From assembly GCA_034440615.1 (NCBI GenBank), contig JAOTOM010004736.1:62001-126000 (forward strand): 64,000 bases of DNA, written 5' to 3'. This stretch comes from Ashinkailepas kermadecensis. Its lineage: Eukaryota; Arthropoda; Thecostraca; Neolepadidae. The notes beneath the pieces are model-generated. The model made no database searches. It saw only the letters and a program-made list of their open reading frames with translations, and was not told the DNA's origin. Numbering within the stretch: the stretch's first letter is position 1; each line of letters begins with the position of its first letter. A program made the translations under genes and the position numbers. This document shows, piece after piece, positions 27,178 to 59,545 of the stretch.

Positions 27178-27314
27178 TGGGCCACCTCCTCGGCGGAGAA
27201 TCCTCTAAAGTCGTACGGCGGCGACGGTGGCGGCTGCTTTGGTTCTTGTTGCTGCTGCTCTTGGCTGGACACGACGGTTGCCGACGGCTTTTTGGCCTTC
27301 TTCCCGGCCTTGGC
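27178..27314 (-). CDS. PRDM9: PRDM9 exon: low-complexity linker
   Basis: Encodes AKAGKKAKKPSATVVSSQEQ, a glutamine run, a proline-rich stretch and PYDFRGFSAEEVAQ. Acceptor CCGCTGCAG, donor GCCCA/GTGAGT. Phase 2 out fits the next exon. It starts in phase 0, which conflicts with the strongest donor of the upstream exon (see 29329-29546). Confidence 0.8.
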
Positions 27315-27334
27315 CTGCAGCGGGCCAGCGCATT

Positions 27335-27625
27335 TGTGACACAGCATTTGTGACCGGACTGTGACACAGCACTTGTGACCGGACTGTGACACAGCACTTG
27401 TGACCAGACTGTGACACAGCACTTGTGACCGGACTGTGACACAGCATTTGTGACCAGACTGTGACACAGCACTTGTGACCGGACTGTGACACAGCATTTG
27501 TGACCGGACTGTGGCACAGCATTTGTGACCGGACTGTGGCACAGCATTTGTAACATTTGTGACCAGACTGTGACACAGCATTTGTGACCAGACTGTGACA
27601 CAGCATTTGTGACCAGACTGTTACT
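27335..27625. repeat. 25-bp minisatellite, about 12 copies
   Basis: Unit acagcatttgtgaccggactgtgac, very homogeneous, ending about 20 bases from the acceptor of the exon at 27178-27314. Three minus-strand frames stay open through it as artefacts. Confidence 0.95.
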
Positions 27626-28620
27626 AGACAACATACGCTGGGGCCACAGCCGGTGGATACGCAGGTGTAGCAAGGGGCTGCAGAAATTACATGTGTTGCC
27701 GACAGACACTGCATGTCGCGCTGTGGTCTGCCGTTCGCGGGCAGCCGCGACATCGGGATGGACACCGCATGTCCAGCGACGACGTGTCTGCTCGACCTGC
27801 GGGGCGTCCCCGTCGCGTCGCCCGTATTTGTTCTGCCTATTTGTTGAACGCCGGTCGCGGCGCAGGTGCGGGTGTTATGCGACCCGTGACCCATTTTTAT
27901 CCTTGTCTCAGCTGGCCCTTGCCTTCATATATAAGCGGCGCGTCTACCTCGCTCTCTTCTTCTGTCGTCTTCGTCAGGTGCACTGCACCTCTGCCGTCCC
28001 GCCGTTGCCAATATAGAAATGAGTACTTTGAGCGCGTGTTGAAGTGATAAGTGGAACAGTGAGTGATCAGTGAAGTGAATTGAGGAACCACACGCAGCAC
28101 TGTTCGTCACGGCTGGGGCACCGTGCCTGACTTTGTTTTTCCTGTTTTCTTTCCACGTTTTTCGTACTCCTTCATTTCCTAATGCCACTGCTCTCTTGAA
28201 TTGGAGGGTTCATTCACTCTTGAATTGGAGTGCTCTTATCTAGGTCCTTGCCCTCTTGAATTGGAGGGTTCATTCACTCTTGAATTGGAGTGCTCTTATC
28301 TAGGTCCTTGCCCTCTTGAATTGGAGGGTTCCTTCACTCTTGAATTCGAGTGTTCTTGATTAGGCCACTGCTCTCTTGAATTGGAGAGTTCCTTTGTCTC
28401 CCTTGAATTTGGGAGCTCTAACCTACGACCTTTATTATTACGTCCACCTTTATTTAGGTACTTCGATTATTTCTTTCTATTCTCCCATCACACATCTTTC
28501 CAACCACTCACATTGTAATTATTTGTTCCTTTTCCTATTGTTATTCCAATAAATTCATTTCACATGGTATTCCCGCTTACTTCTCCCCGCTCTCTCTTCT
28601 ATACCATTATCTTTAGGCCT
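27617..28620 (+). other. Possible solo LTR or promoter-bearing repeat
   Basis: A TATATAA box at 27928-27934 lies in GC-rich sequence and is followed after about 25 bases by a pyrimidine-rich start-like region and a GTCAG/GTGCAC donor-like site. About 620 bases later comes an aataaa at 28548-28553. The order GC-rich U3, TATA, short R, poly(A) signal resembles an LTR. I could not find matched TG...CA ends or a target duplication. Confidence 0.25.
28186..28400. repeat. 60-bp tandem repeat, about 3.3 copies
   Basis: Unit contains ctcttgaattggagggttca and tgctcttatctaggtccttg. First copies nearly identical, last ones diverged. Confidence 0.95.
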
Positions 28621-28859
28621 CTTGGTCATTCTACCCAATGCTGCAGGGCGCCACCCACATATATACAGTCCACTACTAGCGGTTGAACACGGCGTCCGCA
28701 ACAACATGGTAGGACCTCACCGGCAGTGTCATCCTTGATCACTCTTCGATCGCGACCTGCACAGTTTACACAAGTTCCGAAGTGTTGACACTGTGGGAAA
28801 TGCTTGCCTCTTCCCGCATACTTAGCCAATTATTGGCTACACTAACCAGATCAGAAGCG

Positions 28860-29281
28860 TCACCCTAGTGTGGGTGTGCTGGACATTCCCTTGGTGTGGG
28901 TGGTGGTTAATGTGGTTTGTCAAAAAAAAATATGTTGCTGGTGACGTCAAACATTACGTGCGCGTCATGACGTCACCTTGGCGCGGGGGCTGCGAGATGC
29001 GAGATGGCGTCCAACACCTCTATGTTGCCGTTGGCGTAGCCGTCAAACACTGGGTGCCGGTCGTGTCGGGACGAAGCCCGGCGTGGGTGGTGCCAAGCAT
29101 TACCTTGGTGTAGGCGGTGCCAAACATTACCTTGCTGCGTATGGTGCCAAGCATTACCTTGGTGCGGGTGGTGCCAAGCATTACCTTGATGCGGGTAGTG
29201 CCAAGCATTACCTTGGTGCGGGTGGTGCCAAACATTACCTTGGTGTGGGTGGTGCCAGATGCAGGCGGTGCCAAGCGTTAC
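28860..29281. repeat. 27-bp minisatellite abutting a PRDM9 exon donor
   Basis: About eight good copies (29065-29281) of gccaagcattaccttggtgc plus gggtggt, preceded by diverged ones. On the gene strand each unit reads CACCCGCACCAAG/GTAATG, a copy of the exon's terminal bases plus splice donor (CACCAAG/GTAACG at 29282). The array therefore grew from the exon edge and carries about eight decoy donors. Confidence 0.9.
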
Positions 29282-29328
29282 CTTGGTGCGGGTGCCTTCC
29301 GACACGTCCTCGGCGCGGCTGGACCCAC

Positions 29329-29546
29329 GGCCGCCGCCGCCGTCTTGACCGGAGGCCGGAACCTGGCGGCCCTGGCCGGCCGGTCGCACGAGCTGGTGCG
29401 CCGCCGAGCCTGTCGCGCCGGCTGCACGTGCCGGGACGGACTCCACTCGTCGCCGCTGTCGGCGGACGCCGCGCGAGGCCGCTTCGGGCGCACAGGTGGC
29501 GCCACCGGCGGCGGCTGCATGAACTGCGGCGGCTGGTTGGCTATGC
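29329..29546 (-). CDS. PRDM9: PRDM9 exon: post-KRAB linker
   Basis: Encodes (G)IANQPPQFMQPPPVAPPVRP followed by KRPRAASADSGDEWSPSRH and an Arg/Pro-rich tail. The SGDEWSP block matches the DSDEEWTP block after KRAB in vertebrate PRDM9. Acceptor GGTTCCAG, phase 1, fits the KRAB exon. The strongest donor, CACCAAG/GTAACG at 29282, ends in phase 2 and breaks the frame into the next exon. GCGGCC/GTGGGT at 29329 ends in phase 0 and keeps it, so I chose that limit. Alternative splicing or an assembly indel could also explain the conflict. Confidence 0.75.
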
Positions 29547-31216
29547 CTGGAACCGCGAAGGAACCGTATCTAACCTGGAACCGTATCTAGAAGAACCGTG
29601 GCGTGGAACGGGTTCAATGTGCATGGACGTGCGAACCGGTGCGTGGGGTAGAAGGGGGAAAGCGCGCCTCCATCACACTTTGGACGAGCTTAGCACTCAC
29701 CCTATGCGCACCGCATTTAAATAATCGATCTCAAAATATATCTTGCTCCCCCCCACCCAACACACACTAGGACAAATCCTGCGCCACCAGAGGTTTGTCT
29801 ATTTCACGGCCGGCCTACTATTGAAGGTATTGCAGCTTTAGCAACCCATTAGTGGTGCCGCCACCTTTACAATACGTCGCATACCTGGCAGCACTAATTT
29901 TTCATCTGCACGTGGCTGTGACAGCTTACAGCACAAACATTTTGACAATTTTCCACTCATGGCATGTCCATTGCCACATAGTCCGCCTGTTGAACAAGTG
30001 TTTGACCGATTGAAACATTCATTTCCATGAATGAACCCACATCTTGCCAGCGAGTGTGCCACCTAACAGAAGTCACATAAATACTGTATCACTGCATGGC
30101 TCACTCACATCATGTATCATCACTCACTGCATCACAACTCACACTGTATCACAAATACACACACACTCACTCCATCATGTAGTTTCGGGTTTCTACAAAC
30201 ATACCCAAAGCATTGGTTACCCTGGCTGGAAAACCTAATAGGGGTGTATCTATTTTTGAGTAATCAGTAAACACCGATCACACCGAATCACTCCATCTGT
30301 GTTCGTGTTAGTGATTATTTGAGTGATTCGATTGTCAACACTGACAATCGATGGTTCCCATTTAATCGTTTGCTCAGTACACTTCCACTCAAATAACAAA
30401 CGGAAAATAGTCAATAATCACGAAATGGCACGTCGAAAATGTGTGTTGGGACACTTCATTTTGAATGTATACTGGACATTTGCTAGAATACCGAAATACC
30501 TTAGACTTTTCCTACCTTAATTTCCAACGCCATCGCTTAAAGAATCATTTTCCACTCCGACACACAAGCTCAAAATATGTTTTGTGACCCTGCGGGCAAC
30601 GAAGCGGCATTCTGGCCGAAGCCGGTGTCGGTTGAAACCGTGCCGCCGCGTTGTCTGGCCGCAGCACGGCCGCTGGGGTGCACACACGTACGGTGTGGCA
30701 TGTACCGCCAACGGCGGTTCCACGACTTAATTTTACCAATTACTATTAATGATCATAGCATGGGTGCAGAATGAGGGCTCCTTTTGGTAGGTGTCGTACG
30801 TTTCGAAAGCGAGGAATATATGTTCTCCCAAATGATAACCAGGTAAAATGGATTGATTATATCTTATCTGAACTTCGACACGCTTTCCGCAAGTATAAAT
30901 GTTTTCAGTGGAGAGGTCTACCACACAGAGAACGAAGCTTGCTCTCCACGTGGGACGAAAACTTGTCAAGCGACGGCTGAACCAGGGTCGGTGCGATTCT
31001 CAACATTCATCAGTGTTATAAGAAATATCAAGGCAACAGACGCAGGCAGGCTCCACAATATCGCTGGAAATGCGAATTTCAATTTTCACGAGATGATACG
31101 TGCAATCTTTACCAAAAAAAAAAAACGTTTGGGTTGCGATGAAATTGAAACAAAATATATCTTGATATTTAAGCAATACAAATATCACTTGCTTCCTGAA
31201 GCATCGCATGCTAGTG
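29547..31216. other. PRDM9 first mapped intron; GC-rich patch
   Basis: Mostly unique AT-rich DNA; 30577-30730 is a CpG-rich patch with no exon features I can support. Contains one copy of a 138-bp direct repeat (30741-30878). Confidence 0.45.
30741..30878. repeat. Direct repeat flanking the KRAB exon, copy 1
   Basis: Shares gtgcagaatgagggctcctt and taaaatggattgattatat with 32490-32627 in the same orientation, about 85 percent alike by eye. Confidence 0.85.
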
Positions 31217-31573
31217 AAAGGCACCCATGGACGGACCACTGGACGTCCCCACACACCCATGGACGGACCACTGGACGTCCCCACACACCCATGGACGGAC
31301 CACTGGACGTCCCCACACACCCATGGACGGACCACTGGACGTCCCCACACACCCATGGACGGACCACTGGACGTCCCCACACACCCATGGACGGACCACT
31401 GGACGTCCCCACACACCCATGGACGGACCACTGGACGTCCCCACACACCCATGGACGGACCACTGGACGTCCCCACACACCCATGGACGGACCACTGGAC
31501 GTCCCCACACACCCATGGACGGACCACTGGACGTCCCCACACACCCATGGACGGACCACTGGACGTCGAGCGA
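31217..31573. repeat. 32-bp minisatellite abutting the KRAB exon donor
   Basis: About 11 near-identical copies of acccatggacggaccactgg plus acgtccccacac. On the gene strand the exon ends CTTG/GTGAGTGTG and the first unit follows within about 10 bases. GTGAGTGTGTCGCTCGACG resembles the unit's GGGTGTGTGGGGACG, so the array seems to start at the donor itself. 32 is not divisible by 3, so five long open frames on both strands are artefacts. Confidence 0.95.
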
Positions 31574-31582
31574 CACACTCAC

Positions 31583-31730
31583 CAAGCTCCTTCATTTTTT
31601 CGTAGTTTGCCTTCTTTTGCATGAAAGCAGTCTTCTCGTACCTGCTCATCTGCGCCCAGTCTTGTTCGCGAAAGAACGCGCGAATCGGCGCGAATTCTGC
31701 GTCGGTCTCCATGACGCACAGGCAGTTATC
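31583..31730 (-). CDS. PRDM9: PRDM9 first mapped coding exon: KRAB domain
   Basis: Encodes DNCLCVMETDAEFAPIRAFF then REQDWAQMSRYEKTAFMQKK and ANYEKMKELG. The pattern F-x3-(E/Q)-(E/D)W-x2-M-x3-E-K-x6-K-x-NY-x2-(M/L) is the PRDM9 KRAB-like domain, a protein-interaction module. Acceptor CGTTGCAG suggests an upstream exon; an in-frame ATG at 31710-31712 (G at -3 and +4) could also start translation. Donor CTTG/GTGAGT, phase 1. Confidence 0.9.
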
Positions 31731-31932
31731 CTGCAACGTACAAGCCACATTAAGTTTGCAAAAGAGAAAGACAATGTGGTCATTGCAGCCGTCAGTGAAA
31801 AAGTAAACACAACGTATTTGGGGGATATAGGTTGTTGCTTCCGAATGTATTCGAAGAAAAAAATCGATTTAAAGCATGAGGATCTCCCTGCTTCCCTTCT
31901 CCCTTCCCTGTTTCTGTCCCTGCCCATGTCCC

Positions 31933-31986
31933 TGTTCTTGTTCTTGTTCTTGTTCTTGTTCTTGTTCTTGTTCTTGTTCTTGTCCT
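31933..31986. repeat. (ttcttg)n microsatellite
   Basis: About nine hexamer copies with single changes. Confidence 0.9.
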
Positions 31987-32489
31987 TGTCTCTCCCTATC
32001 CCACCTCAAGAAGAATATTATGTTGAGCGCAAGCCAATTTCAGAAACATTCGGAGACAGCAGTCAGAAAGTCCCTATCATAGGACACATTGATAAACAGA
32101 CAAATACAATATGGTATTTGGTGTTTCGAAGTCGAGAAGAGAACATCGCCAAATATTATCCAACTTAGCCTCCTCAAACTTGCATCGTTCCACCAGGAAT
32201 CTCGACATCTGGGAGAAGTGCTACTACCGTAAATGTTCACATCATTATTTCGTTACACTGCCCGAGGTGCCAAGCTGAAAGCAGCATACGCGCATTCATC
32301 GCTGCTTTCCCCACCCCACTGGCTGAAGTTTAATACCTAATTGCACATAACCTGATCAATGGATTCAAATTGTCAGTATATTGCAGACACCAGATCCGGC
32401 AGTTTAAGCAAAACTTGTTGATCGAGTTAGGGGCATCAACATCAAGGAAGGGCGGGTGGTGAGGGCGGAACAAAATGGTAAATTCGAGG

Positions 32490-32627
32490 GCCTACTATTA
32501 CTGATCATAGCAGGGGTGCAGAATGAGGGCTCCTTTTGGCGGATGTCATACGTTCCACAAGCAAGGAATATTCGGTCTCCTAAATGTTAACCAGATAAAA
32601 TGGATTGATTATATATTATCTGAAGTT
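32490..32627. repeat. Direct repeat flanking the KRAB exon, copy 2
   Basis: Partner of 30741-30878; the two copies bracket about 1.6 kb containing the whole KRAB exon and the 32-bp array. Confidence 0.85.
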
Positions 32628-35600
32628 CATGTCGCCGTTTGTAATCGAATGAGTCGTGCCATTGATTTAATTATTAAATAAATGCAATGGTCCCAAGTGC
32701 AATGCACGCGCCATCGGCTACCGCTGCGTCGAGGTGGGAAGATGCACTTGAGTGGAAATAAACTTTAAGGCGGAAATGAACTTTTTGAATCGATCACGTT
32801 GTCAAGCGAGTCACATATTCCATGCTTCATATTTTAGAGCTTTGACCTTGACCTGTGACCTTAATGCGGACCTAAAACATAATTTCTTAAGTGCTCTGAG
32901 ATCGCTCCCCACGGCGCCATCGAATGTCGTTTGGATTTTTCATCGGTCCAGCCCAGCCGTTCTTGAGGTAAGCAGGGGAAATACCCCCCCCCCCATCAAC
33001 GGTGTGTGGCTGAGAAGCTCGGGTTAAGCTAGGTCAGATGAGGCTGTCTATACTTTTGTAGGATCAAGTTGTAGCATTAGACGATGTGTAGCTATAATTG
33101 CTAAACTTAACAACAAATCAAATTGTTCACTTCAGGGCACTGTCGCGAGTTTGAATTTAATTTGTAAGAATTTGCAAGTTTTGCGTAAGGCAATGTTTCC
33201 TGTGGCATGAAGTACCATGACCTCTGGCAGACAGAGAGCACCAACTATTCCACAGGACTGGCACTTAACTGAACATAGGTCGACTGGAACAGGAAGGGGG
33301 TGCCGAGGGAGGGAGGGGCAAAATAGAAAATTGTCCCTTCTTCTGTGAGATGGTTGTATCTAAAAGAACCGAATAGGGCTCTAAATAAAATGTGTTGGGC
33401 ATCGAAAAATCACTCTGGGCAAAAAAATGGAGCAAACATCGCGCAGTGTCCAGAAAACACCGCGCCCGAACCAAGAAAAAAATATGTGCCGAATCTCACA
33501 CAAATCGCACTGTGGGACTCCAAAAAAGAAATCCGTCTGAACCCAATGACTTGTGTAAAGCCAAGAAAAACGTGGGGACCTGAAAAAAATCGCTCCAGGG
33601 CCCAAAAAAAAAAGTGCATTGGGCCCTAAAACCTCGCGTCGGAGCCCAGGAACAACGCCATTATTGCATTTATTTAGGACTTACCTACCCATGTCGGTAT
33701 TATTGTGTTTTAAGGTATTCATGAGGCAAGCTTTACACACATTTTACCTACATAAAACAAAGAAACCGGCTGGAATTGGTGCGGTTAGGTTATGTTAGGT
33801 TTTCTAACTTGGAAAAGTGAGAATCTTTTTTATTTCAAAAATATTCGTAGGTTTTCTTCAAAAGCGATTTAGGCTAGGTTAGATTTTGCTGGGTCATTCA
33901 GCTTGGGTCATGTTAGGTCATTTCGAAAATTTCAAAGAAACAATTGGTTGAAATGTTTCAAAATGTTTGCATTGTCGTGCTTTTTAACGTGTTACCGGCC
34001 CATCACACAAATTTGACACACATTGTACCTTCATAAAGCAAACAAATGGATCAGGTTTTGTTTGGTTACATTCAGTTAGGTTTCTTTAAAGTTGGATTTC
34101 TTAGTTTAAGAAAAAAGAAAGTCTTTATTCTTCACGAGTAGGCTATGCTATAGGATAGGATGGGTCAGTGTTTTCCTTGGCAAAATTTCGGAAAATATTT
34201 AACCGAAAAATGGATTGTTTGCTCCAGAGGGAGGTTAGGTTAGGCTATGCTACAATTTATTTTATTTTAAGCGTTACTGTTGATGCCACATTGTCTAACT
34301 GAAAGCCTACTATTGTTGTTATTTTACTCACGAACTGAAAAGTAAGCATTTCCCAAGATATGATTGGTCACATCGTCTTACTCACGTTCGTAAATATGGC
34401 ATTGAAAAGTTATCAAAACGTCAATAATTAATAAAACGCCTTAAAGCGCAAATTAACCGAATTGATTCTGGACTTTTTCTTAAAAGGGGGGCTAAGCTAG
34501 CCTAGGTTAGGTCATGTTTCATTGTTCTACATCATTTGTACGCTGTATTAGGAACCTTCCTTACTAAAAAACCAGACTTCATCAGTCTTCTTGGTGTTAT
34601 TTTGCTCCTCAACTGAAAAATAAAGAGCTTCAGAGAAAAAGAGCGGTCACATAGTCCTAATCACGTTCATAGACGTTGCACTGAAACAAAAAATCCGAGA
34701 ACTCAACTTACCTTAAAGCACAAATTTACCCCTGTTGAGATCCGTATAGGTACCTAGTAACTTCGTTACCTAATATGACCTCTGGTGATATCATTATAAG
34801 TCAGAATGCAAATGAATGCCAAGGTATGCTTCGAGATTACCATGATCAAAGGTTTCCAACGGTCTTCTACAGTTTATCCTAGCTTACCTAGCTTAGAGGG
34901 GGGGGGGGGGTCAAAAGCCCGGCTCGGCGAAGGCGAGTTCGCCGTCCTGCCCGACGAGAGGATATGCGGGACTATAAAACATGCAGGGGTGGAGTTTCCA
35001 ATACTTTTGGTGGGGCCCAGGTCCCATCATCTTTGCCCTGGCCTCACCAACTTCCTGCTCTTAGTATGGAACCCTATGTGGTGGGGCCCATCAGCAACCA
35101 AATTGACAGCACTCATTTCCTCGGCGCATCTGCATTGGGCCCTACCAATAATTCCCACGCTTCCCCCCCCGCCCCGTCATGAAAGCATTCCTCGATAATC
35201 GACGTACACACACATACATGCATCACCGTAAGGCTAGAACCATGGGTGTTGATTTCCGAAAATTATTTTTGGGGAAAATGCATCAAGGGAATGGGCAGGC
35301 CGAAATGGGATGGGGGCACCATCCATAGGTTCTTATGTTAAAAGTTGAGATTCTTGGGGGACAAAGCCAACATTGAGGAGGCACCTGCCCCACCCAAGGT
35401 ACATAAAACACCTATGGTTAGAACGCTGCTTAAGTAGCCTAAACAACGGAACTTCTCAAAATCAAATGTGAAATGTGGCGCCTCTCCATAGATATAGCTC
35501 TCCCTCGATCAGACCTTCCGCCGCCTGTGGTGCCTACCTCGACTGATTGCTGCAGAACTTCAACAGAACGCTTTGAATTCCAACTGCTTGCTTCGGTAAT

Positions 35601-35859
35601 TCAATAATACGTGAGTAATGCTTCAGTGTTCGGTATCCCAAACATCAATTACCAGTCACCGTGTGTACAAACAACACGACCACTATGCCCGCAGACCCAT
35701 CGCCACTCACTGTCATCAAAATACTGCCTTCTGCTTACATACGGAGCCTCCGTTTCTGCTAAATTTCTGCTTCTTATTTCTGCTGTCTGCTGCCCGACTC
35801 TTGTTTTAAGCCATGCCTTGATTAGTTTACTCTGCAATACTTAGCCAGTTACATGCAGC
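32628..35859. other. Intergenic region between the divergent genes; no gene recognised
   Basis: Contains C- or G-runs at 32985 and 34899 belonging to element fragments. Short open frames near 33345-33629 are A-rich without domains. Confidence 0.45.
33775..34515. other. Scattered TTAGG-like words
   Basis: ggttaggttatgttaggtt, ggttaggttaggctatgc and ctaggttaggtcatg occur over 740 bases without forming an array. TTAGG is the telomere word of many arthropods; here the signal is weak and dispersed. Confidence 0.3.
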
Positions 35860-35960
35860 AATACCAGTGACGTCACGACGTCTTCGCATCTCATTGGTTC
35901 GCGCGCTCCAGCGCTGTTCTTGGTCCGTAGGATCGTACGCATGGGGCTGCGCAGCGAGGT
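35860..35960. promoter_or_regulatory. Candidate promoter segment (CRE, CCAAT, CpG-rich)
   Basis: TGACGTCA at 35868-35875 directly followed by CGACGTC, then ATTGG (CCAAT on minus) and a CpG-rich stretch. Located about 4 kb upstream of the KRAB exon. Candidate start region for PRDM9 or an unknown transcript; no first exon could be placed. Confidence 0.3.
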
Positions 35961-37189
35961 TATTTTCCCGCTCTTTGGGTATGGCAGCAAAGTACCTAAA
36001 ATACCCTACTTGAAGGGTAAAATGAAGGAGTCACAACATGATCGGATGGAGCAAATTATGTCAAATTACAGTATGAGAGAGGTAGAAATCCAGCCGGAAA
36101 CATAGCATATGAAATGGCCCAGAGCGGACGCAGATTTGGGCCGGGGAGCACTGAGGCTATGTCCCCTCATGGAAAGTGGCACCCTCTGACCGAGAAAAGG
36201 CGTTCTGCAAGGAGACTCGAGAGCACCCTCACCAGCTGAACACATTTTTCAGCCAAAGAGTTGAATAGACATCTCAGTTGAATAGACATCCCTTAAAAGG
36301 AAAAAGCTTCCTTTCAGTATGCTCGAGTGCACTCCCCTCGCGGTGAACCATGTTTCAACCGAAGGCACCTATTGAGGACTTCCGCGGTGGCGTTCCTACG
36401 GACGAAAGGAACGAGCAGTGCCGTCCCTCGTTCCCATCAAAATTTCTGGATCCGCCCCAGACTCAAGGTGTTAAGGGTTCGCGCGCGAGCGAGCAGCCAA
36501 GACATTTTTCTGGAGGCAGTCGTGTGAGCGAGTCTTGCCAAGATGGTTGCTTTCGGGGGAACGGTGCTGTCCTTCACATAAGGTTCGGGTATGCTCAACT
36601 TTCATGCAAAGCATGGATAGGGTTTTTGAGTCCCTAGATATAGGCACTTCCAATAGTGGAAGGGTTATGACAATGTCTGTTTCTCTGCTTTAAGAAAATG
36701 TAGCATTAAGTATATGTCATACACAAGATATTTTGTACTCAAGATACGTTGTGGGCACCGCCCCCCCCCCCCCATAACATTGAGAGGGAACCTCCAGTAA
36801 TGAATAGCATTCCTGCCGACATTTGTCCTGCCGCGGAAATCTCTCAAGCTTGTACCCGGTGAACCTACCTAACAAGGGTCGGGTCCAGCGTCCCTTCCCT
36901 CGCCACACCTCAAGGGTGTGCACATGGGCATCGCTACAGATCTTGGATGGGGGACGAATTTTCCATAGGTTGATAATTTTCATGTCTACGTCTTCGGGTC
37001 TTTGGGAATGCTTATGGGCCTTTACGGGCCATTGCAAACATCTGCGGGTCGTTGCGAACGTGTACGGGCCGTTACAAAGGTGGGTGGGCCCTTATCAGAG
37101 CTTACGGGCTGACCCTTACGGGCGTTTACTTACTCCTCATGGTATACTGAATCGACGCCTCTTTCAACGAATGTTTAACATCCTGCACA
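35961..37189. other. Intergenic; no gene recognised
   Basis: About 36310-36450 resembles the hAT-like fragment near 24.7 kb; a C-run lies at 36762. No exon identified. Confidence 0.4.
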
Positions 37190-38544: not shown

Positions 38545-38729
38545 CCCTTCCTGCCAGGGTGAGAGGCAGGCGACGCCATATCCTCTCAGCTTCCGAGTGC
38601 GTCGTGAAGTCACAACCACCGTCCTTTGAGCCATGAATGAGAACGGTCCACCCAGACACAGACACCCAGTCCATCCGCAGCACTCCAATGCTCACCGTAA
38701 CAGAGCCTTGGGTCGTGGTCACGGCCATG

Positions 38730-43974: not shown

Positions 43975-44775
43975 CAGCATGGATGCCTGAGTGCTGCTGT
44001 GAGTGCCTGGGTGCTGTGGGTGTCTGAGTGCTTTTGTGGGTGTCCAAGTACTGTTGTGAGCACCTGAGTGCTGTTGTGAGCACATCCGAGTGATGTGATA
44101 TTATGAGTGTCTGAGTGCTGTTGTGAACGCCTGGGTGCTGTTGTGAGTGTTCAATTGTTGTTCGGAGTGTCGGAGTGTTGTTGTTGGCGCCTGATAGCTG
44201 TTGTGAGTGTCTGATTGCAGTTGTGAGTATCTGACTGCTGTTGTGAGTGTCTGACTGCTGCTGTGAGTGTCTAAGTGCAGCGGTGGGCACCTGGGTGTTG
44301 TTGTGGGTGTCTGAGTGCTGTTGTCACTGTCTGACTGCCGTTGTGAGCGCCTGACTGCCGTTATGAGTGTCTGACTGCTGTTGTAAGTGTCTGACTGCTG
44401 CTGTGAGTGTCTAAGTGCAGCGGTGGGCACCTGGGTGTTGTTGTGGGTGTCTGAGTGCTGTTGTCACTGTCTGACTGCCGTTGTGAGCGCCTGACTGCCG
44501 TTATGAGTGTCTGACTGCTGTTGTAAGTGTCTGACTGCTGCTGTGAGTGCCTAGGTGCCGTGGTGGGCACCTGGGTGTTGTTGTGGGTGTCTGAGTGCTG
44601 TTGTCACTGTCTGACTGCCGTTGTGAGCGCCTGACTGCCGTTATGAGTGTCTGACTGCTGTTGTAAGTGTCTGACTGCTGCTGTGAGTGCCTAGGTGCCG
44701 TGGTGGGCACCTGGGTGTTGTTGTGGGTGTCTGAGTGCTGTTGTCACTGTCTGAGTGCCGTTGTGAGTGCCAGAT
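43975..44775. repeat. 20-bp minisatellite with 140-bp higher-order repeat
   Basis: Base unit ctgagtgctgttgtgagtgt. From about 44220 a 140-bp block of seven base units repeats with few changes, about 3.5 times. The array ends about 16 bases before the acceptor of exon 2. Confidence 0.9.
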
Positions 44776-44791: not shown

Positions 44792-44926
44792 TCTTGCCGA
44801 GGAGTGCCTGGAGAGGCGGCGCGGCCGTAGCCTGCGGCCTTTCGAAGCGTACTTCATCGGCGACTCCAGGGCGAGGGACCTCTACGAGCACGCGAGCTCG
44901 CTCCTGAACGCCGACGGGTGCGTGCG
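44792..44926 (+). CDS. CASD1: CASD1-like exon 2: GDS nucleophile block
   Basis: Encodes SLAEECLERRRGRSLRPFEA then YFIGDSRARDLYEHASSLLN. FIGDSR is block I of SGNH/PC-esterases; its serine is the acetyl-accepting nucleophile (CASD1 has FIGDSRIRQL). Acceptor CCCGACAG. Donor TGCG/GTGAGG chosen; an upstream GACGG/GTGCGT has the same phase (2) and would remove three residues. Confidence 0.8.
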
Positions 44927-44945
44927 GTGAGGAGCTCCGGAGCAC

Positions 44946-47871: not shown

Positions 47872-47995
47872 AGATTTGGAGGAACGGAGGAACGAATGTC
47901 TGGAGAGATTCAACCGGACGTTCGAGCCGGGGGAGCGGCGGACCGGCAGAGACCACTGGTGCAGCTACAACGAGACGGGGCGACTCGTCAGCATG
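47872..47995 (+). CDS. CASD1: CASD1-like exon 3: variable luminal segment
   Basis: Encodes (R)[20 protein letters not shown] then [21 protein letters not shown]. Two N-glycosylation sequons. It lies where CASD1 is poorly conserved, so support comes from phase (2 in, 0 out), acceptor CACACCAG, donor GCATG/GTGAGA and the missing-segment position. Confidence 0.7.
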
Positions 47996-48028: not shown

Positions 48029-48690
<662 letters not shown>

Positions 48691-50650: not shown

Positions 50651-50856
50651 CAGAGGCCTAGCCAGGGGCGGATCCGGTACCCCCCACCCCCACCCCCCAT
50701 TAGGAACCGAAATTGCCTTTGGTTAAATGGGAACTTTGGGATCTCCACCACAGACAAACTAAAACATTCGGCGCGCTCTGTGCGCCGAAAACTTTCTCTG
50801 CTTCGTTCTATTCTTTTGGTCGGGTTCCCCTTGGGAAAACCCTGGCCGCGCCACTG
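50651..50856. mobile_element. hAT-like MITE, 206 bp, with 8-bp target duplication
   Basis: Left end CAGAGGCCTAGCCAGGGG, right end CCCTGGCCGCGCCACTG. Flanking octamers acaactga and accactga match 7 of 8. The interior has the gcgcgctctgtgcgccgaaa core shared with 9.9 and 42.1 kb. Confidence 0.8.
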
Positions 50857-51651
50857 ACCACTGACGTCACTAGCAAGTGATATCAAACGTCGTCTCTGCC
50901 CAAATATCAGCCCAAAACATCGTTCCATTCTATATTAGCCAAATAGGCATCCGAACTTCAAACCAGCCCAGTCGCCGAATATTCGCCGCGCAAATGATAA
51001 CCAATCACGTGAAACGTCTACGTGCTCCGCGCGCATCGACCAGCCATCAAGTGAGACAGTGACGTCATAAGACAACAACGTCATAGGCTGTTGATCCGTC
51101 CGCAGCAGTGATAAATTATTCGTGAAATAGGAGTAGAATGTATCACCTTCTGTACACTTAATACACATCATTCCACAAAAATATCGACACCAGACTTCCG
51201 GATGTGTGTTTATAGAGTTGCCATGCCTCGTTTCAAAAAGTTATTTTTCGTGTACGAGCATTATGTTTATATTCCCCAATACAGATCGTAATACACAATC
51301 ATCTCATAACACAATGCCCTGAGCTACGAGATGCATATTTGCTACGTTGTTGCGCAACAGGCGTGTAGTGTGCTCTGTTATGCTATATAATGTGTTGATA
51401 GTAAGGCATTTGTTATCATTATCATTAATAAATGTGTTCGTATGATAGATGTCTCCCAAAATAAACGAAAAATATCCACATCTGAGTATGGTATTGGCTG
51501 AAAATTGGGCTTGAAGGAATGATATTTTAAACGGCATGCTTCCGTAGGAAACTTAGATACCCTACTAACTGTACTAGATTCGACATATCACACCTAACGA
51601 AAAACAAATATTTAACACGACGTTATGACATCACCATGACGTCATCCGCAG
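50857..51651. other. CASD1-like intron 3, end
   Basis: Unique sequence with three TGACGTCA octamers (50862-50869, 51060-51067, 51637-51644), the last only 7 bases before the exon 4 acceptor AG. Confidence 0.45.
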
Positions 51652-51805
51652 ACGTACCTTTGGCGGCAATATCTGGACGACGACTACCTGTCGAGCATAC
51701 GTCAGCTGCAGCGGCAGTGTCAGCTGACTAAGTGTCCAGACCTCGTGCTGGTGAACGGCGGAATGCACGTGATCTGGAAGTACTTCGGGAACTCCACCGT
51801 CTTAG
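51652..51805 (+). CDS. CASD1: CASD1-like exon 4: NGG block
   Basis: Encodes TYLWRQYLDDDYLSSIRQLQ then RQCQLTKCPDLVLVNGGMHV and IWKYFGNSTVL. PDLVLVNGGMHVIW aligns with CASD1 PHV(I/V)VAGAATWSI, the oxyanion-side strand of the SGNH fold. Acceptor ATCCGCAG, donor CTTAG/GTGGGT, phases 0 and 1. Confidence 0.85.
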
Positions 51806-51868
51806 GTGGGTTGGGGTGCTTCACCCTGGTCCACCGTCTTAAATGGGTTGGGGTACTTCAACCTGGCC
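51794..51868. repeat. 37-bp duplication spanning the exon 4 donor
   Basis: Exon end plus intron start (ccaccgtcttaggtgggttg, then gggtgcttcaccctggt) is repeated once in tandem. In the second copy the donor reads cttaaatggg and is destroyed. Confidence 0.9.
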
Positions 51869-53479
51869 TACTACCGTGATGGCTCAAACTAAATATCATT
51901 GGGTTTAATGCAAGTAATTCCTCGTACTGGCTATCAACTCAGAACGTGGCCTTCGTTGGATGCTCGGCAATAGAGGTCATCAGGTAGAGACGTCCTGTTC
52001 CGAGCTGTTGCGACTAACAAAAGCCGTGACATTTGGCCTTCCAGGAGGCGGAGTCCCGCATCAGCTGATTCAAGTGATTCAAAAGCTGGAAAGTTCTTTT
52101 TCTCAACATCAGACATTTTTTTCCGATTTTTGTTTGCTGAGGCGTGGGGCGGCCAGCGGGGAAATTGGTTCGAGGCCTCGAAGTTTTTGAGACATTTGAC
52201 AGCAAATATAACATTCAAATTTCCACCTTCATTTTGTTATTGTCATATTTATTTATAAAGTTTTTCGTTGCCGAGAAACCACGAACTACACTTGAGTGGT
52301 GTTGAAATTGCTGAGTGGTGCGGAATTCCTTTGCCGGTTATATCGGTTGCATCGTCGACCATTTTGAAAAGAAGCTTCATCTACATGCATGAATATGGAT
52401 GCTAATTTAACAACTGTCGGGGAGATAACGTTTTGGACGGGGACTATACGTACATACCATATTCAGACAGGGCGGTCGGATTTTTTTCGTCAGCAGACGA
52501 TGACTCGTATGTCATCATATGTTGTGTCACATATGAATTTAGACATAATAAATGGCGACATTTCTAGACTGGATGAATTCCTTCGATGCTAATTTTCAAA
52601 TGGTTGCATTTCCAATCCTTGTCTTGTCCCTCCGACGATCTACCACTGCGTAACAGTTATACTTAATAAATCGTTTGATGTTGAGTAATAGGGTTTTCGA
52701 GGTTTTGAAGTATTTGAATCAGCTGCTGTTCCAGGCCTCACAATTTAACAGGGGCAGAGATTTTGATGGTCTTTGCTTTCGGCCTATTCTTAATTGCCCG
52801 GATGGCTCTACCCCGGACGGGTAGGGTATCGTCGAGATACACAACAACACAAATCTAAACTACGATGCTCACACTTGCAGATCTGAAGTTATAGCTGTAA
52901 TACAGCTCTTTAGAGCACGAATCTTCTTGGTAAGCTTCGCACTAGCTAATCCACCTTACAACACCAGCATCTCCTTTGCCACCACCAGGGGCGAGGGATT
53001 AGGGGGCTGGGGGCACGGGGTGGTGGGTGAGATGGCCCCGTGCCAAAACGATGGAATTCTGAATCCACCGTTGCCGTGCATCACCAGATTGGAAATTGCG
53101 ACACCGGACTGGAAGGCGATCGACAATGGAATCAGAGAGGGGGCGGGGGAAGCGATGGGAAAATGAACTCGAAAATGGATATATGACGGGACCCATGGAG
53201 GGGATTGGGGAAGGGGACCGGGAACCGCAAGGCGATTCCTATGAGCGAATCCATAGGAATCGCTCACCCCTAGCGTCGCCTTCTTCGGTGACGAAGAAAG
53301 TCCTCCTGCGTCGGACTACACTTTCCGGAAAGTTGGAAGTTTCCGGAAAGTTCCGGAAGCCCTCGTCTCCCCTTGTGCAGCATGACACGGGACTCATTTT
53401 ATCGGTGAGCTGTTGTCTTTGAAGCAGTCGCCACGTGACTATTTCCGGGCACGATGGCACAAGTTGGCCAGGTGGTACG
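51869..53479. other. CASD1-like intron 4; no gene recognised
   Basis: A minus-strand open frame at 51934-52218 has no domain. CpG-rich patches near 53130-53300 lack exon support. Confidence 0.4.
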
Positions 53480-53890
53480 GAACTTCCTCGAGCTCACTTG
53501 TCTATCTGAGTTATCTTATCTATCTGTGTCACTTGTCTATCTGAGTTATCTTGTCTATCCGAGTTGTCTTGTCTATCTGACGAATCACTTGTCTATCCGA
53601 GTTATCTTATCTGAGTTATCTTCTCTATCTGAGTGATCTGTTTTCTGGGTCACTTGTCTATCTGATTTATCGTGTCCACTTGAGCTATCTTGTCTATCTG
53701 ACTTGCCTTGTCTACCTGAGATATCTTGTCAATCTGAGTTATCTTCCCTATCTGAGTTATCTTGTCTATCTGAGTTATCTTGTCTTTCTGAGTTATCTTG
53801 TCTATCTGAGCTATCTTGTCTGTCTGAGGTATATTGTCTATCTGACTTACCCTGTCTATCTGAGCTATCTTGTCTGTCCGAGTCACTTGT
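53480..53890. repeat. 18-bp minisatellite, about 22 copies
   Basis: Unit gagttatcttgtctatct with variants. Confidence 0.93.
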
Positions 53891-54044
53891 CTTCTGACTT
53901 TAGGACCTACGGAGAGCTGTGTTAACTAGCCGAGAAATGTGCGGCCTTTGCTGCAGCCTGTCGGCGTCACTGCTTCCGGCTGCTGTCGGCGTCCTCTAGG
54001 TGGGCGCATTTCTGCCTCAGCACCCTACGACAGTTTTCCCACAT

Positions 54045-54375
54045 TCTCGTGTGTTGTGTTGGGTTGTGTTGGGTTGTGCTGTGTTGTGTGTTGTGTTGTG
54101 CGTTGTGTTGTGCGTTGTGCGTTGTGTTGTGTTGTGTTGTGTTTTGTTGTATGTTGTGTTTTGTTGCGTGTTGTGGTGTGTTGTGTCGTGTTGTGTTGTG
54201 TTGTGTTGTGTTGTGTCGCTTTGTGTTGTGTTGTGTTGTGTTGTGTTGTGTTGTGTTGTGTTGTGTTGTGTTGTGTTGTGTTGTGTTGTAGTGTGTTGTG
54301 TTGTGTTGTGTTGTGTTGTGTTGTGTTGTGTTGTGTTGTGTTGTGTTGTGTTGTGTTGTGTTGTGTTGTGTTGTG
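54045..54375. repeat. (TGTTG)n pentanucleotide tract, about 65 copies
   Basis: Starts irregular and becomes perfect from about 54225. Confidence 0.97.
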
Positions 54376-54732
54376 CATTTGCGTCAACATGGCGGAAGAA
54401 GGGGGACGCATCCCCTCAAGCTTTGTGAAGTTTAACATTGCAGCTATGGTGTTGTTTTGGAGAAATCGAGCAAAGCCACTTTAGCCCCCCCCCCCTACCC
54501 AAAGCCAGTGGCCAGGCCCATGTTACTGATCTTACATGTGCCAGTTTCATTGCTCTCATTCTACTTTCCCTGGAGATAGGCACCCATGATCATGTTAGAC
54601 ACTCATTGCACGACACGTAGTTATTTTCAATGAGTGGAGAGGGGTGTTATATATGTATTCCTATATGTGACACTACGAATACCTTCCACAGGTGTTCATC
54701 AGTCGATTTGAGGTGTTGTTCGGCCCTCATTG

Positions 54733-54880
54733 GACATCCAAGTGTTTTATTTCCTCGGCTATTCGGTTCCTTTCTACTTCCTTGGGTATTTAGCCTTTTA
54801 CTTCGTTTGGTATTCAGCTTTCCGCTTCGTCCGGTATTCAGCCGTTTCTTCCCCCAGGTATCCAGCTTTTCGGTCGTCAG
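54733..54880. repeat. 24-bp array running into CASD1-like exon 5
   Basis: GGTAT(T/C)CAGC-type words recur exactly 24 bases apart (54785, 54809, 54833, 54857) with poorer copies upstream. The last copy is the exon itself: CAG/GTATCCAGCTTTTCGG. The pyrimidine-rich unit also supplies the 3' splice-site tract. Confidence 0.85.
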
Positions 54881-54931
54881 CTGAAGAAACTGGCGCCTCT
54901 GCTGCAACAGGTGGCGGAACTCGGTGTCACG
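54858..54931 (+). CDS. CASD1: CASD1-like exon 5: helix after NGG block
   Basis: Encodes (G)IQLFGRQLKKLAPLLQQVA then ELGVT, matching the CASD1 helix with SIAPLLEKLA. Acceptor CCCCCAG, donor CACG/GTATGA, phases 1 and 0. Confidence 0.85.
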
Positions 54932-54951
54932 GTATGAGATGTGCAGCTAGC

Positions 54952-55194
54952 CAGAGGCGGATCCAGGGGGGGGGGAAAGGTCCATGTCTCCCCCCCCCCC
55001 TCCCCACGAGAGACCGATTTTTGGCCGATACTATGCGCTAAAGTTGCATTTGCTCGAAATCTAAGAACATTTAAGTAGATGAATATCGTCTTAAGCTGAC
55101 CTGACAAATGTTGGTTATTCAAATCTGATGAGTTTTTAGAAATTGGAGTTTTCGATTGCCTCTCCCCAAAGCCAGGCTTCTGGACCCGCCTCTG
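54952..55194. mobile_element. hAT-like MITE, 243 bp, with 8-bp target duplication
   Basis: Inverted ends CAGAGGCGGATCCAG and CTGGACCCGCCTCTG. Flanking octamers cagctagc (54944-54951) and caactagc (55195-55202) match 7 of 8. It sits between exon 5 and a diverged copy of the exon 5 end (55201-55246, ggtggaact-type words). Confidence 0.88.
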
Positions 55195-55202
55195 CAACTA
55201 GC

Positions 55203-56225
55203 ACCTCTACTACAGCAGATGGTGGAACTAAGCATACACGGATTTGAAAGTCATTCCGAATGAAGGTCAAATCATGTAAGATCAGGTCAAGTCACTTCAG
55301 GCCAGTGGTTGACCATTCCATGTCATATCGCACGACTTAGGCGCCAATGAAACCGAATTCGGATATGACTTCACGAGGAACAGCAACAGTCTATATAATA
55401 TGCATGGTATATAATATACATCAACCTTGACCGGATCTTATGTCGTTGACCTTTGACTGGTATTTTAGCACAGCAAGCTTCTTACCTGCTCTTTAACATT
55501 ATTGCATGAAAATTACCCACAATTTCAAATTCTCCCACTAAGTAGGTACGGTAAAAAAGCGCGAAATTTTCCTGTACTCAGGTCAGTGAGCTTGACCTTA
55601 ATTGAAACTTCAGAATAGCAGGTTTTCGTCTTCGTGAAAGAACAGCATGAAGTTTGGCGCTTTTTAGCCTCACCAGAGTTTAATGCGTGTGAGATGCTCA
55701 GAGTCAGGGATGTTGTTTTATATACTTTTGAGGAGGGGCACATGCCCCTTCAATATTGGCTTTGTCCCCTCAATACTTTCAACTATTAACATGGGACCCC
55801 ATGGGCAGTACCCCTCAATGCATTTGGGCTCGTCCTTGTCTTCATGCCTCCGCAATAATTTTCGAAAGTCAACGCCCGTGCTCAGAATTGCCACTTTGCA
55901 CACGCTAAGTGGGCGCTGGCCCACTCAATTATTGATTTGGCCCCATCAATCATCGATTCCCCCGCCGCAATCGGACTGAAGCTTAACAATTGAGCCTATG
56001 GGCGTACACTACATGCAAATGTTTTTGGCGGTGCCTTTTGCCATCAAAAGGCCATTTACCCCCTCCCCCCCCCTCCCCAACCAACTTCATAAAGTGTCAC
56101 CCATGGTGGTGCTTTTGAAAATGTCCCGTTGAGCATGGTCAGAATCCACAATTTTCTTGCTAATCTGGTATATTTTGTCTTCAGTGCGGAGCTCGGAACT
56201 CCCCCTCGTTTGAGCCACTGCTACA
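55203..56225. other. CASD1-like intron 5; no gene recognised
   Basis: Starts with the decayed copy of the exon 5 end. The rest is unique, with gggg/cccc short runs near 55735-55830 and 56058. Confidence 0.45.
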
Positions 56226-56750
56226 TCTACTGACTCCCACTATACGACGTGTCTTGGTGTGCGCTGCTGTACGGTCCACGCTTGGAGCACCGTTGAAATC
56301 GTAGTTCGATGTTTGTTCACCAGGTGACGTGGCTGCTGTACGGCCTACACGTAGAGCAGCGTGGAAATAGTAGTTCGATGTTTGTGCAACAGGTGGCGTG
56401 GCTGCAGTAGTTCTATGTTTGTGCAACAGGTGGTGTGTTTGCTGAATGAACCGATGATGGAAGTCGCTACTGTACGACCTACACGTGGAACAGTGTGCAA
56501 ATAGTAGTTATACATTTGTATAACAGGTGGTGTGGCTGCTGAATCAACCACTGATGGAGGACGCAAATAGTCGTTCCAGGGTTGTCCAACAGGTGGTGTG
56601 GTTGCTGTACGGCCCACACGTGGAGCAGCGTGGAAATAGTAGTTCGATGTTTGTCCAACAGGTGGTGTGGCTGCTAAATAAGCCACTGGTGGAGGACGCA
56701 AATAGCAGTTCTAAATCTGTCCAACAGGTGGTGTGGCTGCTGAGTGAACC
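56226..56750. repeat. Roughly 65-bp array of exon 6 acceptor copies
   Basis: Six to seven units, each with a splice acceptor and exon start, (c)aacag/gtggtgtggctgctg, followed by one of two alternating bodies (accactgatggaggacgc or acggcccacacgtggagcag). Only the last unit continues into the real exon 6. The others are decoy 3' splice sites with in-frame or nearly in-frame exon-like sequence ending at TAG. Confidence 0.9.
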
Positions 56751-56834
56751 GATAATGGAAGACGCCGGGGGCGGTTTCGCCCGGATGCATACCGAAGTGC
56801 TCTGGCTGCTGAACCAGGTTGCCGTGACCATACT
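56728..56834 (+). CDS. CASD1: CASD1-like exon 6
   Basis: Encodes VVWLLSEPIMEDAGGGFARM then HTEVLWLLNQVAVTIL. VVWLLSEPIMED matches CASD1 VYWVLQDPVYED, and LNQVAVTIL matches YNEAAVSIL. Acceptor TCCAACAG, donor ATACT/GTGAGT, phases 0 and 2. Confidence 0.85.
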
Positions 56835-58231
56835 GTGAGTTTCCCACCACATCTCGTGATCCGACCACGTGGTATGGCATGGCGTGGTATGGCTGGTAAA
56901 CATGGGGTTGGAGAGGGGATGGGAACACAAACCCATTCCACAACTTTGGACGAGTTTAGCATTGACCCTGCGGACGTTCCAAGAATGACTGCAAAGTTGC
57001 TCGTGTCTCCCCTAGCTTTGGGACAGTTGATCCGCCACTGCCGATAAGCCAGGTGGCCGCGGCCGTACTGCGAGCTTCGCAGTCCCCACCACATCTAACG
57101 TTCCGTTCAAGTTGGCAGTGGCGTACCCAGGATTTGTGTCAGGGGAGGTGGTCAAGCGGATTTGGTATCGACCCACGTGCCCTCATTTTTTTTTATTTCC
57201 AGGATTTCGTCAACGATTTTTAATGGGCCATTTTAATTGATTGAAAAAATAACCAACTTGATTTTCCCGTGGACGTGGCCCAATGTATCGCCATCGATTT
57301 GAAATCATCGGATTTCAGCCCCCTCACCCCTGTTAAAAATTAATTTATCTGGTATCCCTTGGCATCTTGGCTCACGACGCTAAGATGACGCCAGTACAAA
57401 GCACTTTAACTGTGAAAATTCCCCAATTCACGTATTTCAGTTCATATTGACAGGTCACCACCATGCCCACGTTCGTGCACGTGTACACTTGCCTTGTGCA
57501 TTCGGCGCATTCGCCGCACTTCGTGTGATTCTGCGGTTTCTGCTAGGCCCCCTACGTTTTACTAATTGCTGCAATGTGATAGACTTGTGCCATATTTAAC
57601 GTCATGGAATGCTTCGTATGGGGTTCTCTGGGGAAATTCGATGATTTCAAGTTGAACGTTATTTCCCTTCTACCCACATTTTCTATTGGCGATGAAATTT
57701 GGATTCTTCGCTGGGCTTTGATGCATCTCATTGTTTGAATGTTCTCCCAGATTATCTGCCAAACTTCGGTGTTACTTTTCACGGGATCCATTGCATTTTT
57801 ATTCTTCTAGTGGTGTGTGTTAGGGCTACAGCGCGTTTTTGTTTTGGGCCTGGGACGTGTTTGAGACCCAGCGCTTTTTAGTGCTCGGTTCCTTTTTCGT
57901 GGGTTCATTTGTGGGTCCATTTCCGGGTTTCCTTTGAGGGCCTCCGATGAGTTCTTGAGAGTTCCCGTTATGATAAATAATGCGCTCAGTATTCAGCCTC
58001 AGCAGCGATGGTTTTCTCGATAATATTGTTAAAGTTTCGCCTTCAACATGGCTCTATCGTTGTTTCCAAAGACGATCGAAAAACATACTCTAAAGGAGAC
58101 TAAGTTCGACAGAAGAAGAAAGGTTTTAATTGGTGAGCGAAGCTATGCTAACATTAGATAATATTTTCATAGTCAAATTAATAATGCTTAACAGGCTCGC
58201 GCACTTTTAGTATTACCGTTCTAACACCAAC
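56835..58231. other. CASD1-like intron 6; no gene recognised
   Basis: A CAGTGGCGTACCCAGG hAT-like end at 57116 lacks a visible partner. Remaining sequence unique. Confidence 0.45.
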
Positions 58232-58272
58232 AAAAATAGTGTGCAGCTGCTGTGCAGCTGCACACTATTTTT
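58232..58272. repeat. Perfect 19-bp inverted repeat with 3-base loop
   Basis: AAAAATAGTGTGCAGCTGC (58232-58250), loop TGT, then its exact complement (58254-58272). A partial third copy and a ctgctgtgcagctgctg word follow to 58322. It would fold as DNA cruciform or RNA hairpin; E-box CAGCTG in each arm. Confidence 0.95.
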
Positions 58273-58489
58273 GATTTTACACAGCTGCACACTATTATTT
58301 TTACAGCTGCTGTGCAGCTGCTGTTGTCATGGGTGCATCCACGGTTAGGGGGAGGGGGGGGTGGCGTCCTACCCAAATTTCGTAAAATTTAGTACGGCGT
58401 CGCGTGGGATAAATCGACCTGAAAACCCTCTCGTCCCCCCCCGCATCCAAAATCCATCGCGATGTGCGTGGCTGTACAGAGAGCTGTAG

Positions 58490-59085
58490 GGCTGAGGTGT
58501 TGCTGTGGCTGTGGCTGTGTTTATGGCCATTGTGGCTGTGGCTGTGGCTGTGGCTGTGGCTGTGGCTGTGGCTGTGGCTGTGGCTGTGGCTGTGGCTGTG
58601 GCTGTGGCTGTGGCTGTGGCTGTGGCTGTGGCTGTGGCTGTGGCTGTGGCTGTGGCTGTGGCTGTGGCTGTGGCTGTGGCTGTGGCTGTGGCTGTGGCTG
58701 TGGCTGTGGCTGTGGCTGTGGCCGTGGTGTGGCTGTAGGCTGAGGTGTGGTGTGGCTGTGGCTGTGGCTGTGGCTGTGGCTGTGGCTGTGGCTGTGGCTG
58801 TGGCTGTGGCTGTGGCTGTGGCTGTGGCTGTGGCTGTGGCTGTGGCTGTGGCTGTGGCTGTGGCTGTGGCTGTGGCTGTGGCTGTGGCTGTGGCTGTGGC
58901 TGTGGCTGTGGCTGTGGCTGTGGCTGTGGCTGTGGCTGTGGCTGTGGCTGTGGCTGTGGCTGTGGCTGTGGCTGTGGCTGTGGCTGTGGCTGTGGCTGTG
59001 GCTGTGGCTGCTGTGGCTGTGGCTGTGGCTGTGGCTGTGGCTGTGGCTGTGGCTGTGGCTGTGGCTGTGGCTGTGGCTTCTTGGC
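58490..59085. repeat. (GGCTGT)n hexanucleotide array, about 95 copies
   Basis: Almost perfect, with a break at 58722-58752. The flanking words gagagctgtagggctgaggtg (left) and gagagctgtagagctgagg (right) are copies of each other. Open frames encode dipeptide repeats only and are not genes. Confidence 0.97.
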
Positions 59086-59187
59086 TGTGGCTTTGCTTCT
59101 TTTTTTGCCGAGAGCTGTAGAGCTGAGGTGTTGCTGTTACTGTGGCTGCACCGAGAGCAGCATAGGCTGTACCGGCTACGCCGGCAG

Positions 59188-59413
59188 GCAACGGTACCCG
59201 AGCGTGGTGATCTGGTCATCGCACCTGCCGGTGGCGCTGTGGTACCAGGAGGTGTGCCGCGTGCTCGACTACCCCCACCGGTTCAACTTCGTCTGCCACG
59301 ACCCGATCCACCTCGGCCAGTTCGCCTACGTCAACTACCTGGACATCATGATGAACCACGTGTGCGACGGCTACGTGGCCATGCCCGAGAGTAACTGCTG
59401 CGGTCGGCACTGA
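59188..59413 (+). CDS. CASD1: CASD1-like exon 7: DxxH block and stop
   Basis: Encodes (L)QRYPSVVIWSSHLPVALWYQ, EVCRVLDYPHRFNFVCHDPI, HLGQFAYVNYLDIMMNHVCD and GYVAMPESNCCGRH, then TGA at 59411-59413. DPIHL provides the Asp and His of the SGNH triad, as DGLHL does in CASD1; ESNCCG matches DGSCCQ just before the first transmembrane helix. Acceptor GCCGGCAG, phase 2 in. A TGCG/GTCGGC donor at 59402 could instead splice on to membrane exons outside the window. Confidence 0.8.
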
Positions 59414-59545
59414 TGATGGTGAAGATGCTGCGGTAGGCACTGATGATGGTGAAGATGCTGCGGTCGGCACTGATGATGGTGAAGATGCTGCGGTCGGCAC
59501 TGATGATGGTGAAGATGCTGCGGTCGGCACTGGCGATCGTGAGGA
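59395..59545. repeat. 30-bp array overlapping the end of exon 7
   Basis: About five copies of ctgcggtcggcactgatgat plus ggtgaagatg. The first copy is the exon's own last codons, possible donor and stop; the second copy improves the donor-like site to gcggtaggc. Confidence 0.92.

Follow-up and report, generated by a model that had tools for sequence, protein, structure and literature searches.

Minisatellites that copy exon-intron junctions in the genome of the crustacean Ashinkailepas kermadecensis

Minisatellite-like tandem duplications at exon-intron boundaries, known as mirages, have been described in amphioxus, where the accessible part of one paper describes them in globin genes, cites Adh3 and reports regular splicing together with length instability (PMC3087553), and that of a second adds PGBD5 and TnC (PMC3902484). 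In the cases cited in these parts the units are about 10 to 160 bp long (PMC3087553, PMC3902484). The corresponding part of a study of human duplicated genes describes minisatellites with units of about 30 bp at exon-intron boundaries that are able to create new introns (PMC2812944), and intron gain of the Rogers type, as cited in the accessible text of PMC3087553, proceeds by tandem duplication of sequence that bears splice signals. The present study concerns a 64-kb stretch of the genome of Ashinkailepas kermadecensis (contig JAOTOM010004736.1, positions 62,001 to 126,000), which was analysed whole and is called the window here, and in which two genes, A on the minus strand and B on the plus strand, have tandem arrays at the edges of their exons. 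Genome-wide counts refer to the assembly of 907.7 Mb in 4689 contigs. An earlier note made from the letters of this DNA had pointed to border minisatellites in amphioxus, which are real, and its observation on splice-junction arrays is largely right, four of the six borders that it named having been confirmed, while its interpretation is half right. We consider it probable that minisatellites form pervasively in these introns and that selection on an exon retains and preserves the copies anchored on it, so that most of the pattern would be a by-product of a genome rich in repeats and not the sign of a splicing mechanism.

Arrays in the window were identified with Tandem Repeats Finder (TRF) and by direct self-comparison of each junction with its intron. 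The junctions examined number 18 (12 in gene B and 6 in gene A, whose exons downstream of 27178 were left out of the count), and 16 of them belong to eight introns with both ends fixed. At 4 of the 18 the junction's own sequence is copied in the adjoining array, namely at the donor at 29281, the donor after 51805 and the acceptors at 54858 and 56728, with units of 27, 37, 24 and about 66 bp respectively. The first of these donors (GTAACG) belongs to the gene A exon 29282..29546 on the minus strand, which has splice consensus at both ends and an open frame. The array that copies it (CACCAAG/GTAATG, the slash marking the junction) occupies 29085..29295 on the same strand, the range given by TRF being 29085-29257 and the junction copy being a diverged copy at the edge; CACCAAG/GTAA is repeated in eight further copies at an identity of at least 65%, seven of which keep GT. 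In gene B, on the plus strand, an array of two 37-bp copies (51793..51866) lies across the donor of exon 4 (51652..51805), and its second copy is without GT. The acceptor of exon 5 (54858..54931; cccccag/GTATCCAG) adjoins a 24-bp array at 54769..54866, extended to the junction copy from the TRF range of 54769-54851, which carries the acceptor region and the exon start in four degenerate further copies at 55% identity (one at 65%); none keeps AG, and the best matches 16 of 24 bases. At exon 6 (56728..56834), an array with units of about 66 bp (56255..56765) copies the acceptor and exon start, CAACAG/GTGGTGTGGCTGCTG, in six further upstream copies, and AG is kept in 6/6. When the eight fully fixed introns are taken together, 3 of 16 junctions are copied at 20 of 24 bases, the share among edge-matched intronic positions being 2.4% (binomial p 0.006), and 4 of 16 are copied at 17 of 24 bases (p 0.005). 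This window had, however, been selected for the pattern, and in the unselected myosin sample described below the excess is smaller. The donor region of exon 6 (56835) has an old, diverged and weak copy about 235 bases downstream (about 57060), matching at 18 of 24 bases.

At the two remaining borders named in the earlier note, the array copies no splice junction. The 32-bp array beside the gene A exon that we take to be KRAB-like (31583..31730, minus strand; donor at 31582) consists of 10.8 perfect copies (31222..31567, minus strand) and begins 15 bases inside the intron; it does not include the junction, for which the intron offers no better match than 12 of 24 bases, the same level as at array-free junctions. 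The 30-bp array of 5.2 copies at the end of exon 7 (59396..59551, plus strand) begins 15 bases before the stop codon of the last exon of gene B (59188..59413, plus strand) and covers it (TGA, 59411-59413), so that it marks a coding end and no splice junction. Arrays said to end 16-36 bases from three other exons are indeed present, at distances of 20, 35 and 20 bases, yet none of them copies the junction: arrays at 43987-44771 stop 20 bases short of the acceptor of gene B exon 2 (44792..44926, plus strand), a GA repeat begins 35 bases past the donor of exon 3 (47872..47995, plus strand), and the array at 27335-27621 stops 20 bases short of the acceptor of gene A exon 27178..27314 (minus strand). 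The tracts past exon 3, at 48031-48689, are adjoining near-pure dinucleotide repeats (GA x 77, AT x 135 and AG x 120).

A second set of introns was chosen so as to escape the selection of the window. Exons of the myosin head were located genome-wide, and 30 loci and 20 further stretches were taken. Their exon models were obtained with a purpose-written spliced aligner, whose splice-site weight matrices contained generic values, and with a profile built from the genome's own Pfam-located exons, because a search for a PDB reference listed only closely similar Dictyostelium myosin II chains. This yielded 117 exons in 18 blocks with 99 introns, nine of which were dropped (flanking exon shorter than 25 bases or more than 5% N), leaving 90 introns (median 1.1 kb) and 180 junctions. 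A comparison of paralogous stretches for further exons returned 312 matches and was dropped, the best 80 of the 312 having looked like interspersed repeats. In the myosin sample, 12 of 180 junctions (6.7%) lie inside an array, with units of 27-140 bp and spread over nine contigs, for example the C3231 donor (39-bp unit x 19.6), the C4659 donor (39 bp x 27.6) and the C4219 acceptor (74 bp x 3.3). In all 12 arrays the unit fits its own junction better than about 99% of the other junctions of the same kind; among arrays that begin 1-60 bp into the intron, 4 of 19 fit their own junction at the 95% level.

The density of arrays in these introns is high. With every period counted, TRF arrays make up 23% of the myosin gene DNA sampled (208 kb) and 17% of the window. 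A random intronic position in the sample falls within an array in 21% of cases, more often than a junction does. The earlier note's statement that random placement would not produce such coincidences is not supported, a large part of the coincidence between junctions and arrays being expected in introns so rich in arrays. These densities are what pervasive intronic minisatellite formation would lead one to expect. Short tandem duplications, with units of 24-140 bp at junctions, would arise throughout introns, and a founding duplication that happened to lie across an exon edge would give every unit of the new array that exon's splice site. The outermost copy would be the exon's own and be kept by selection, whereas the inner copies would drift, homogenise and vary in number like any minisatellite, and splicing presumably stays on the exon-adjacent copy. 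The exon would form a wall that arrays can reach without extending far into it. Some excess at junctions is to be expected without any special mechanism, because an exon-side copy under selection diverges more slowly than two free copies, and the wall and this slower decay could account for much of the roughly twofold junction excess described below.

Since a junction can only sit at the edge of an array, intronic positions at array edges are the fair control. In the self-copy test a 24-base window centred on the junction was used, a copy was sought within 500 bases on the intron side, and the controls were intronic positions matched on one side only. The first edge-matched run (12+12 bases) found 11 of 180 junctions copied against about 3.6% of controls, and a further control, less strict than the final one, gave ratios of 1.65-2.1 (p 0.07 to 0.004). 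A refined run with a stricter condition on the other side of the control gave ratios of 2.0-2.5, and the overall range across edge-matched tests is about 1.7-2.5. The refined ratio is 2.1 at 17 of 24 bases (1.3-3.0) and 1.95 at 22 of 24 (0.65-3.5), and perfect copies (24/24) are found at 5 junctions where 1.2-1.3 are expected. The junctions copied at 20 of 24 bases comprise 5 donors and 6 acceptors, both sides being hit about equally, so nothing singles out one of them. Wholly exonic 20-base windows show no excess (4 of 180 against about 4% of intronic controls), as pervasive formation with preservation at the exon would have it; with 20 exonic and 10 intronic bases the count is 7 of 180 against about 4%, the result depending on the choice of window.

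Array edges are in excess near junctions, the next edge lying within 30 bp at 14 of 168 junctions outside arrays against 3.3% of intronic positions (2.5-fold). This is not so for whole arrays, within 30 bp of which 26 of 180 junctions (14.4%) lie as against 25.3% of random intronic positions. The excess of edges peaks in the first 30 bp and disappears at 30-60 bp (5 of 154 against 3.3%), which also supports the exon-anchored explanation, and no excess is seen at 200-400 bp. A modest enrichment, on which the earlier note had let its idea stand or fall, survives control for array density in the myosin sample. A junction-specific effect may contribute to it but would be modest at most.

The copied sites also bear on selection for redundant splice sites, which the earlier note suggested, or for alternative isoforms, under which copies would be kept because several usable sites help splicing or diversify its products. 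Retention was followed in 16 junction arrays (12 from the myosin sample and 4 from the window), the test being run on rounded per-array values. On average 0.74 of the copies retain GT or AG, no better than the 0.72 for other dinucleotides (Wilcoxon p 0.51). Near-complete retention in some arrays (30/32, 12/12, 6/6 and 7/8) would suit selection for redundancy or for alternative isoforms, as would the many copies that score within one unit (nat) of the authentic site and the 4 of 16 arrays in which use of some of the copies would lengthen the exon with neither a frame shift nor a stop codon, all frames that are open in the exon being counted. In the other 12, however, no alternative site is productive because of a frame shift, a stop codon or a lost dinucleotide; the C4659 donor, for example, has 32 further copies, 26 of which score about like the real site, and none keeps the frame open. 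Since copies score well and yet 12 of 16 arrays offer no productive alternative, the cell would have to be reliable in choosing the site next to the exon, or else put up with mis-spliced RNA or degrade it. These results lend no support to selection for redundant splice sites, and we think it quite unlikely that such selection explains the arrays.

Several of our observations weigh against pervasive formation followed by preservation at the exon. The excess at junctions appears at most thresholds; at 20 of 24 bases, 11 of 180 junctions are copied against 2.3-2.5% of controls (4.2-4.5 expected), a ratio of 2.5 with a gene bootstrap interval, taken over 13 contigs, of 1.5-3.6. The slow decay of one copy alone would yield an excess of about 1.4-fold, to judge from the way the control decays with the threshold, and by this estimate the observed excess is larger. 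Array edges are again somewhat commoner at 60-100 bp (10 of 149 junctions against 4.0%) and at 100-200 bp (16 of 139 against 8.9%), and when arrays were re-placed wholly inside introns a threefold excess within 30 bp appeared (25 against 8.1 of 180), which is an upper bound only, as this null forbids straddling and overstates the excess. Genome-wide, the donor motif MAGGTRAGT forms 2005 tandem pairs per 27,718 occurrences (7.2%) and the same motif read backwards 1039 per 32,035 (3.2%), a 2.2-fold difference that rests on one control motif and in which some large arrays weigh heavily (C817 and C1068 among the matches listed); in the myosin sample alone the motif occurs as 10 singles and in no pairs, counts too small to use. 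Pooled over copies, the splice dinucleotide is kept in 87 of 104, much of this coming from two large arrays, and in a post hoc subset of ten arrays with at least two copies, one AG-losing array being excluded, retention is 0.89 against 0.67.

A mutational hotspot at the junction could produce some of this. Expressed exon edges, through co-transcriptional R-loops, pausing, nucleosome edges or slippage, would start duplications more often than other sites, and the roughly twofold excess in the edge-matched self-copy test, the 2.5-fold surplus of array edges in the nearest 30 bp, the 2.2-fold tandem excess of the donor motif and the surplus of perfect copies can all be read in this way. However, donors and acceptors are affected about equally, and the near-identical copies (22 of 24 bases), which slow decay should affect least, have a ratio whose interval includes one. 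Persistence of the exon-side copy and the wall effect also predict an excess without any hotspot. We therefore regard a hotspot as unlikely, and it is to the same degree doubtful that junctions are true birthplaces of minisatellites, where an exon-edge process about twice as active as in the rest of the intron would leave several per cent of exon borders multi-copied.

The arrays might instead be traces of intron gain of the Rogers type, that is, of tandem duplication of exon sequence bearing AG/GT, an origin that the accessible part of PMC3087553 puts forward for amphioxus mirages and degenerate intron repeats. The sampled introns, with their median of 1.1 kb, contain much other sequence, and we hold this origin to be very unlikely here. 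It is more improbable still that the pattern is an artefact of wrong exon borders or misassembled repeats. The borders are predicted from sequence, the assembly may misstate how many copies an array has, and the C3897 acceptor, where an array reaches 98 bases into the exon, may be an error of the gene model. Nevertheless, a Pollicipes protein guided the exon borders in gene B, the conserved myosin profile guided those in the sample, which are consistent in phase and have GT-AG ends, and the junction-overlapping arrays lie in nine different contigs.

Gene B occupies 43.2-59.4 kb, and the protein stitched from its exons, including exon 4, has two matches. The better, at 59% identity over 96%, is to P0121 of the goose barnacle Pollicipes pollicipes, the other to an unnamed ENA protein (49%). 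Its exon borders were set by comparison with P0121 (exon 2 acceptor 44792, exon 5 acceptor 54858, exon 7 at 59188; likewise exon 6), with phase as a further guide at exon 5. Gene A lies at 31.7-11.4 kb (window positions 11406-31730), and Pfam recognises in it C2H2 fingers and, through PF21549 (E 1.2e-6), part of a PR domain. It resembles PRDM9 in these domains and presumably in its first exons, which we take to be KRAB-like and SSX-like, the latter (29282..29546) presumably the linker of a PRDM9-type gene. Pfam gave no match for either exon, and a KRAB search of the genome failed to recognise the exon of gene A, the positive controls of the same search having also matched nothing.

The myosin genes themselves showed some further features. 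The stitched protein of C4659 resembles myosin V. Two muscle-type myosin genes (L031-L036; C4393 and C4673) each carry in triplicate the exon that encodes myosin-head positions of about 377-435, which we take to be akin to the mutually exclusive exons of arthropod muscle myosin; the alternative copies were left out of the models. Beside this intron-rich family stands a divergent myosin head without introns (L001:1501-3378 on C2400, minus strand), encoded by a single open frame of 669 codons. Open frames of about 600-2275 codons span exons and introns together in L039, L040, L037, L047 and others, perhaps where long intronic arrays are without stops.

Splice-site-copying minisatellites thus occur beyond amphioxus and human paralogs. 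The sample provides a density-controlled estimate of their frequency, with 12 of 180 sampled junctions, or 1 in 15, inside an array. Genomes of this kind offer a natural test of the spliceosome's choice between many sites of almost equal quality, and they also bear on how introns grow, move and are gained. If junctions were indeed birthplaces of minisatellites, the cell would have to select the correct site among up to some thirty look-alikes. In the literature searched, which covers few subscription journals, we found no crustacean or barnacle case; as far as the accessible text of each source extends, the word "intron" is absent from the main text of two barnacle genome papers (PMC9582164, PMC8416341), "minisatellite" is absent from the first of them (PMC9582164), and "splice" is absent from a paper on Daphnia tandem repeats (PMC3152781).

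The human cases, according to the part of the source at hand, concern recent paralogs from segmental duplications and are backed by transcripts, whereas the arrays described here lie in conserved genes such as myosins and are seen in DNA sequence only. They differ also from intron gain of the Rogers type, as the accessible text presents it, in that such gain makes a new intron, both ends of which derive by copying from a single exon segment bearing AG/GT, whereas here existing introns carry the arrays, none being shown as new. The likeness to amphioxus mirages is closer, for the accessible parts of both papers describe tandem minisatellite-like units across exon-intron boundaries, with AG/GT in many copies (PMC3087553, PMC3902484). 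Our units, of 24-140 bp, span the junction (4 of 18 in the window, 12 of 180 in the sample) on the donor or the acceptor side (5 and 6). The differences are that the host is a crustacean and not a cephalochordate, that the arrays are known here from the DNA of a single assembly, and that their frequency was measured against a matched intronic background. The arrays of the window apparently work like amphioxus mirages and represent a new occurrence of a known kind, in an arthropod.

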